Assembly (NCBI GenBank): GCA_016938235.1
Contig: JAFGVA010000130.1
Location: 52,076 to 116,075, forward strand
DNA from: Bacteroidales bacterium
GTDB lineage: Bacteria > Bacteroidota > Bacteroidia > Bacteroidales > UBA10428
Length of the DNA stretch: 64,000 nt
Direction of reading: 5' to 3'
Of the stretch, positions 9,928-11,228 are shown piece by piece. The notes under the pieces were generated by a model. The model did no database searches, had not been told where the DNA came from, and worked only from the letters and a program-made list of their open reading frames with translations. Numbering within the stretch: the stretch's first letter is position 1; the number at the start of each line of letters is the position of its first letter. The translations under genes and the position numbers were made by a program.

Positions 9928-10452
9928 ATGAAATTTAAAGACATTTTAGCTATTTCCGGAAAACCAGGACTTTTTATTTTTGTTTCACAAGGCCGAAGTG
10001 GTATTATTGTAGAGGGTGTTGCTGATAAAAAACGTATGGCAGTTCATTCAACTACTAAAGTTAGCGCATTAGAAGATATTGCTATTTACACAGAAACTGA
10101 AGAAGTTCCTTTGAAGGAAGTATTTGTTAAGATTTACGAAAAAGAAGACGGAAAACAAACTATTAGTCACAAGTCGTCTAATGATGAGTTAAAGTCGTTT
10201 TTTGAAGAAATTTTACCAGATTATGATAAAGACAGGGTTTATGTTTCTGACATTAAAAAACTAGCCAATTGGTATAATCTTTTAATTGAAAACAAGATTT
10301 TTAGCCCTGAAATGCTGAAAGAAGAAGAGGAAGAGAAAAAGCAGGCTGAAGAAAAAGCTGAAAGCAAAGAAGAAAAAACAGAAGAAACAAAAATGACAGC
10401 TGAAAAAAAACCTGCAACAAAAAAACCGGCGGCTAAAAAGACCAATAAATAA
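9928..10452 (+). CDS. DUF5606-family protein
   Basis: 174 aa. The N-terminal half (FKDILAISGKPGLFIFVSQG through VYVSDIKKLANWYNLL) matches the Bacteroidota DUF5606 family, of unknown function. The C-terminal 50 residues are low-complexity: first Glu-rich, then Lys/Ala/Pro-rich, ending in a KPAAKK-type basic tail that could bind nucleic acid or rRNA. No signal peptide. It has its own good promoter and is followed by a rho-independent terminator, so it is a single-gene unit. Confidence 0.85.
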   Translation: MKFKDILAISGKPGLFIFVSQGRSGIIVEGVADKKRMAVHSTTKVSALEDIAIYTETEEVPLKEVFVKIYEKEDGKQTISHKSSNDELKSFFEEILPDYDKDRVYVSDIKKLANWYNLLIENKIFSPEMLKEEEEEKKQAEEKAESKEEKTEETKMTAEKKPATKKPAAKKTNK

Positions 10453-10477
10453 AACTTAACAATCAGTTAATAATATT

Positions 10478-10507
10478 GGGAGGCTTGTTTAGTCTCCCTT
10501 TTTTTAT
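10478..10507 (+). terminator. Rho-independent terminator after the DUF5606 gene
   Basis: Stem GGGAG (10478-10482) / CTCCC (10494-10498) followed by an eight-T run. Confidence 0.85.
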
Positions 10508-10551
10508 TTTATTACCCGACCCGGTTTGGAAATAGTTCATCAAAATCTCCT

Positions 10552-10581
10552 AAAAAAGTGATGCCGGGACGATGCCCGGCA
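10552..10581 (-). terminator. Terminator of the candidate sRNA
   Basis: Perfect 7-bp GC-rich stem TGCCGGG/CCCGGCA with a 6-nt loop, followed on the minus strand by TCACTTTTTT. Confidence 0.8.
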
Positions 10582-10656
10582 ATCAACCAAAACCCTAGAA
10601 ACCATGAAGTGAAGCATACTCCCGGCAAAACCGGTAGTATTGCATCTTCAATATTA
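10552..10656 (-). ncRNA. Candidate small non-coding RNA, about 105 nt
   Basis: A self-contained transcription unit on the minus strand. It has a promoter at 10662-10694 (TTTTG, 21 nt, TACTTTG), then a long stable hairpin at 10611-10649. That hairpin's arms GAAG/CTTC, GCA/TGC, TACT/AGTA and CCGG/CCGG close a UUUUG loop. A roughly 29-nt single-stranded linker (TTTCTAGGGTTTTGGTTGAT) follows, and the unit ends with terminator hairpin TGCCGGG/CCCGGCA and a T-run. A 25-codon ORF can be read through it, but it crosses the terminator and is unlikely to be real. I cannot assign it to a known RNA family from memory. tmRNA, SRP RNA and RNase P signatures are absent. Confidence 0.6.
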
Positions 10657-10661
10657 ACGTA

Positions 10662-10694
10662 CAAAGTACGAATTTATACTTTAATAATGCAAAA
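10662..10694 (-). promoter_or_regulatory. Promoter of the candidate sRNA
   Basis: Minus strand TTTTG (10694-10690), spacer of 21 nt, TACTTTG (10668-10662). The same arrangement with a 21-nt spacer is found before phoH. Confidence 0.5.
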
Positions 10695-10853
10695 GTTAAT
10701 CAAATAAATTTCGAAATATCTTAAATAGCGGCTCAATTATAACTTTCGAACAGGTTTTGATGACCTCTGAAATGCTACTTAAGGGTTAAACCTCATACTT
10801 TTAAGAATTCGCTTCGGGAAAACAGTTTTCAGACCAAAGCCTGTACAAATTTT

Positions 10854-11228
10854 CTATTTCACTGTTCCTTTTATATACAAATGATTCAGTGGTTCTTCGG
10901 TATTCGTAGTCACAGTAACAGTTTTACTAAAATAACCTGAGTCTTTTGCATCAAAAGTAACAGTAATTTTTCCGGTACCACCAGACGGTATGGGTTCTTT
11001 TGAATATTCTGGAACAGTACAGCCACAAGAAGATTTAACATCGAGAACAATAAGTGGCACCATTCCCGGATTTTTAAATTCAAAATCAATAATTACCGGC
11101 ACATTTTGCTTAATTGAACCAAAATCATGCTCAGTAAAAGACCACTCAATAGCTGCTTTTGGCGATGCAAAAGCAAAAATTACAATCAGCGTTAAAATTG
11201 ATAGCGAAAATTTTATACTCCGTTTCAT
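10854..11228 (-). CDS. DUF1573-family secreted protein
   Basis: 124 aa with an N-terminal signal peptide (FSLSILTLIVIFAFASPKAA), then one DUF1573 immunoglobulin-like domain. The hallmark CGCT motif is present in VKSSCGCTVPEYSKEPI, after FGSIKQNVPVIIDFEFKNPG. The family is abundant in Bacteroidota and periplasmic or surface-exposed; its function is unknown, although the ASH/MSP-like fold suggests protein binding. It appears monocistronic, with 112 bp to the gene upstream. Confidence 0.9.
   Translation of the reverse strand: MKRSIKFSLSILTLIVIFAFASPKAAIEWSFTEHDFGSIKQNVPVIIDFEFKNPGMVPLIVLDVKSSCGCTVPEYSKEPIPSGGTGKITVTFDAKDSGYFSKTVTVTTNTEEPLNHLYIKGTVK

Follow-up and report, generated by a model that had tools for sequence, protein, structure and literature searches.

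What does the intergenic DNA between a DUF1573 gene and a convergent DUF5606 gene encode in a Bacteroidales bacterium of the genus UBA10428? To our knowledge, few trans-acting small RNAs (sRNAs) of Bacteroidota have been characterised. The original prediction, made within the 64,000-nucleotide stretch of DNA analysed here (the window), placed an unannotated small RNA gene with its own promoter and terminator at this locus. The letters that it described are all present on the minus strand, namely TTTTG (10694-10690), 21 nt, TACTTTG (10668-10662), a GC-containing hairpin at about 10650-10611, a linker, a GCCGGG/CCCGGC terminator hairpin (10580-10563) and a T-run. The unit lies about 190 nt downstream of the DUF1573 gene on the same strand and comprises a folded 5' domain, the linker and an intrinsic terminator that ends at 10552. 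An uncharacterised gene and MazG lie farther upstream of the DUF1573 gene. The features of the locus are as follows.

10854..11228, minus strand: DUF1573 (PF07610) protein gene, identified with Pfam; its orthologue adjoins the RNA in a related genome (G003), so that it serves as a syntenic anchor and lies outside the RNA unless the RNA is a 3'-UTR product.
10690..10694, minus strand: possible -33 element TTTTG, read from the sequence; weak and not conserved in G003.
10661..10668, minus strand: possible -7 element TACTTTGT, read from the sequence; weak, fitting TAnnTTGY and not TAnnTTTG.
10611..10650, minus strand: 5' structured domain from folding, with a GAAG/CUUC closing stem and an inner hairpin AUACUACCGG-UUUU-GCCGGGAGUAU; its interior sequence is not conserved.
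10583..10615, minus strand: conserved linker and proposed seed GCUUCACUUCAUGGUUUCUAGGGUUUUGGUUGA, identical at 33/33 positions in G003 and reverse-complementary to a leader plus AUG.
10562..10581, minus strand: intrinsic terminator hairpin UGCCGGG-CAUCGU-CCCGGCA, extended below by UGA/UCA, from sequence and fold; kept in G003.
10552..10557, minus strand: terminator T-run of six T and RNA 3' end, read from the sequence; also found in G003, whose contig ends inside the T-run.

The 105-nt RNA from 10656 to 10552 folds at -33.2 kcal/mol, compared with -24.4 +/- 3.2 kcal/mol for dinucleotide shuffles (z = -2.7; 3/200 shuffles reach it). Its terminator, with the letters TGCCGGG-CATCGT-CCCGGCA-TCACTTTTTT, is one of four terminator-like sites observed in 10440-10900, where 0.2 are expected. 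The other strong terminator of this region (10478-10498, plus strand) ends the convergent DUF5606/DUF6852 gene. The unit had been described as lying beside a terminated gene, and it is this convergent gene that is terminated; the same-strand upstream DUF1573 gene has no visible terminator in the window. A covariance-model search with Rfam 15 (4227 families, including 6S and RteR) at the gathering cut-off returned nothing in the window. A permissive Rfam search gave matches no better than chance, all elsewhere in the region and none for the unit.

Is the unit conserved? A blastn search against 60 relatives yielded one real match (91% identity, E 6e-18), in G003, a genome of the same genus (DNTK01000371.1, Bacteroidales bacterium UBA10428). 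The G003 copy is syntenic: it follows the DUF1573 orthologue on the same strand. It likewise has no Rfam match at a meaningful score. The linker GCTTCACTTCATGGTTTCTAGGGTTTTGGTTGA is identical between G003 and the window at 33/33 aligned positions and is followed in both by the terminator hairpin GCCGGG/CCCGGC and then TCACTTTTT, whereas the remaining spacer shows little similarity. Because the DUF1573 proteins of the two genomes are only 65% identical, unconstrained intergenic DNA should have lost its similarity, and the linker and terminator are thus under selection in these two species. The absence of conservation in relatives, which would have spoken against a gene, was not what we found.

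The 5' domain of the RNA has been replaced. It differs in length and letters, and its fold is a single long hairpin in the window but a pair of hairpins in G003; in both it is closed just before the linker by the same GAAG...CUUC stem (GAAGCUA/UAGCUUC). The G003 RNA also folds better than its shuffles (z -6.4). In the G003 terminator, a U-A pair is added at the loop side and the bottom of the stem is changed on both sides with pairing kept, which we read as mild compensatory evidence from two sequences only. The linker is G/U-rich and largely unpaired, and the mean unpaired probability of its 24-nt core is 0.57 in both RNAs, compared with 0.37 (window) and 0.31 (G003) elsewhere. Both species therefore display a short unit with an intrinsic terminator and T-run, as is typical of trans-acting base-pairing sRNAs, and an accessible seed that is better conserved than the rest, although the latter is judged from only two sequences. 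A fixed linker in a drifting remainder is what selection on the single-stranded seed of a trans-acting sRNA would leave. The unit is thus most likely a real small-RNA gene, new to Rfam and probably non-coding, and the syntenic G003 unit bears out the original prediction in this respect.

The RNA is a narrowly distributed, new sRNA family that belongs to a known kind. Only two genomes, the window genome (G000) and G003, were found to carry it, and two carriers offer little covariation. The linker is single-copy in its own genome at up to 3 mismatches. A 27-nt pattern with the same tolerance turned up nothing more in the family (23 genomes) or the order (392 genomes), and when one genome from each of about 85,000 species was scanned for an exact 22-nt match, only G003 and one Flavobacteriales contig were retrieved. 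A covariance model of the linker and terminator scored 95 bits for the two members among 197 relatives and at most 25 bits, near chance, for the next match. Syntenic DUF1573 loci in other species of the genus, plasmid DNA and viral contigs (the last by exact 22-nt search) contained no copy. At the syntenic place downstream of DUF1573 in G008, a weak model match (L047:2382-2429; 8.4 bits, E about 1) ends in TCACTTTTTT and is possibly a decayed copy.

What could a fixed single-stranded linker recognise? Bacteroidota start translation largely without Shine-Dalgarno sequences, and the linker, read as its reverse complement, gives a plausible Bacteroidota translation initiation region that includes the AUG (ACCAAAACCCUAGAAACC-AUG-AAG). 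Since it is complementary to an A/C-rich leader plus AUG, pairing with start regions is its most likely mode of action. We therefore favour, with good though incomplete confidence, a trans-acting base-pairing sRNA of about 105-110 nt whose linker seed masks mRNA start regions and blocks translation initiation. The folded 5' domain, seen in sequence and fold, would shield the 5' end, and the intrinsic terminator, visible in the same way, would make the 3' end. The conserved 33-nt linker between them would be presented as an extended seed that anneals, on one or several mRNAs, across the start codon and the adenine-rich stretch before it, so that translation initiation would be blocked by antisense masking similar to that of GibS. 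The suggestion that the linker is a base-pairing seed thus gains support from its being the most conserved part and from its complementarity to mRNA start regions.

Transcription may start at a promoter of the RNA's own or reach the unit by read-through from DUF1573. The window layout TTTG-N21-TACTTTGT fits a -33 TTTG plus TAnnTTGY, a -7 variant reported in Flavobacterium psychrophilum (PMC9723704). Across 128 kb of strand there are 6 instances of TTTG-N17-22-TAnnTTGY, one of them in this intergenic region. The intergenic strand of the unit lacks TAnnTTTG, the main Bacteroidota -7 box, and no equivalent promoter was found in G003. An autonomous promoter in the window is thus weakly supported. 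A perfect palindrome, CGTACTTTGTACG, at 10658-10670 overlaps the proposed -7 box and could be an operator or part of the 5' UTR.

These observations bear on the strongest competing explanation, in which the DUF1573 mRNA ends in this element as its 3' UTR and terminator, and any sRNA is cut from that mRNA without a promoter of its own. The unit lies on the same strand about 190 nt downstream of DUF1573, it has no TAnnTTTG box, and the window contains no terminator-like site between the two, so that release from the DUF1573 3' UTR is conceivable here. In G003, however, a strong hairpin and T-run (AACCGCC...GGCGGTTTTTT, L049:1875) separates DUF1573 from the unit, making independent transcription likely in that species. 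Moreover, the linker is far better conserved than the remaining spacer, a constraint that a plain terminator does not need. We consider a 3'-UTR origin unlikely, if still a serious competitor to an independent sRNA gene.

Does the linker address a few mRNAs or start regions in general? It might act as a broad silencer, being a generic antisense of the Shine-Dalgarno-less initiation region (adenine-rich upstream part, ACC, AUG, AA) that down-tunes many exported- or membrane-protein mRNAs together and has no small set of specific targets; we regard this as improbable. To test pairing with start regions, we compared duplex energies of the linker with such regions (-35 to +20) against shuffles that preserve UUCAUG, using sampled stretches of G000 (about 0.8 Mb). 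In the first sample, 45 genes reached -16 kcal/mol or lower, compared with 25.8 +/- 7.1 for shuffles (0/60 reach it), and only 0-1/60 shuffles attained the observed best-10 mean and strong-duplex counts at the sampled starts. Internal AUG sites in G000 gave no duplex excess over shuffles, and this contrast favours the preferred reading. The excess was weaker in a second G000 sample (29 versus 20.4 +/- 4.5; 7/100 shuffles), and G008, which does not carry the RNA, showed a similar one (24 versus 15.2 +/- 3.8; 2/100 shuffles), so that part of the complementarity signal reflects general leader composition. In every genome of the genus, RNA carrier or not, the 10-mer AAACCATGAA is more frequent than its reversed control. 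ACCATG occurs at 11/353 sampled G000 gene starts, and the linker is therefore not a copy of a universal motif.

We also considered whether the linker complement recurs as a leader motif across its own genome, and rejected this because at 22 nt and up to 3 mismatches only the RNA itself matches. The Flavobacteriales contig retrieved above (CAJQON010000010.1, position 7600) matches the linker complement exactly over 22 nt at the start codon of a real gene, which encodes a 245-aa, probably exported protein with the leader and start AACCAAAACCCTAGAAACC-ATG-AAA. It is not another sRNA, since the opposite strand is a leader and start codon, and the match is probably a coincidence helped by leader composition. 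Two near matches of the linker complement also lie at ORF starts, one belonging to a G003 lipoprotein (L045) and the other to an ORF of G006 (L043). These three matches at starts accord with the reading of the linker as the reverse complement of an initiation region.

Alternatively, the conserved 33 bp may act on the plus strand or as DNA, either as a two-codon ORF (AUG-AAG-UGA) with its leader or as a protein-binding site. Both species do carry an exact leader with an AUG and, after one codon, a UGA, but no gene or terminator follows on the plus strand, the terminator at 10478-10498 already ends the convergent DUF5606 gene upstream, and the polarity of hairpin and T-run is conserved on the minus strand in both species, which makes this explanation very improbable. 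A small peptide gene on the minus strand (AUGGUUUCUAGGGUUUUGGUUGA..., MVSRVLV...) can be practically dismissed: although an ATG opens within the linker in both species, the frame crosses the terminator stem with no stop in either, and what is conserved is the nucleotide sequence, without a synonymous pattern.

The preferred reading, a trans-acting sRNA that masks start regions, has precedents. GibS (BTnc201) of Bacteroides thetaiotaomicron is an intergenic trans-encoded sRNA that represses its targets by annealing across their start codons with a long, highly conserved single-stranded seed (PMC7366714). The present unit is likewise an intergenic Bacteroidota sRNA with a long conserved seed, for which we propose start-codon pairing. 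The GibS seed is the unstructured first 30-50 nt, whereas here a 5' hairpin domain precedes the seed and the terminator follows it. The two thus differ in architecture, and the Rfam search recognised no homology. Rfp18 of Flavobacterium psychrophilum, compared by description, is also a conserved, strongly structured sRNA with one fixed region, predicted to pair with several exported-protein mRNAs (PMC9723704). However, that region is in its third stem-loop, and deletion of Rfp18 lowers, not raises, two protease mRNAs. RteR of CTnDOT in Bacteroides is a trans-encoded sRNA of about 90 nt (PMC7366714); it is a mobile-element RNA, whereas our unit is chromosomal, has housekeeping genes as neighbours and matches nothing in Rfam. 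That a further RNA has a conserved seed complementary to a start region suggests recurrent use of extended start-codon pairing for riboregulation in the phylum, and the unit supplies a defined 33-nt seed that is directly testable.

Which mRNAs might be targeted? No predicted target was convincingly common to G000 and G003 in the sampled genes. The strongest G003 case is a head-GIN/DUF2807-like lipoprotein (AAAACCCAGGAAACC-AUG-AAA, -30.9 kcal/mol), whose G000 orthologue is not complementary (-9.0). For an EamA transporter that was a predicted target, no G003 orthologue was found. The strongest G000 case is a MacB-like ABC permease (G000:C144:32792-34084, L214), in which AAAACCCUGGGAACC-AUG-AU is complementary over about 20 nt at -32.7 kcal/mol, compared with a mean best duplex of -21.5 (sd 2.0) for shuffled linkers; its G003 orthologue has a different, non-complementary leader. 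The next gene, HlyD/MacA-like, carries AAACCAUGAA at its start in G000 and G003 (-17.1 and -15.3 kcal/mol) and not in G008 and G001, which makes it a weak lead as a shared target. Together, the MacB-like permease and the MacA/HlyD-like gene constitute the best candidate target operon.
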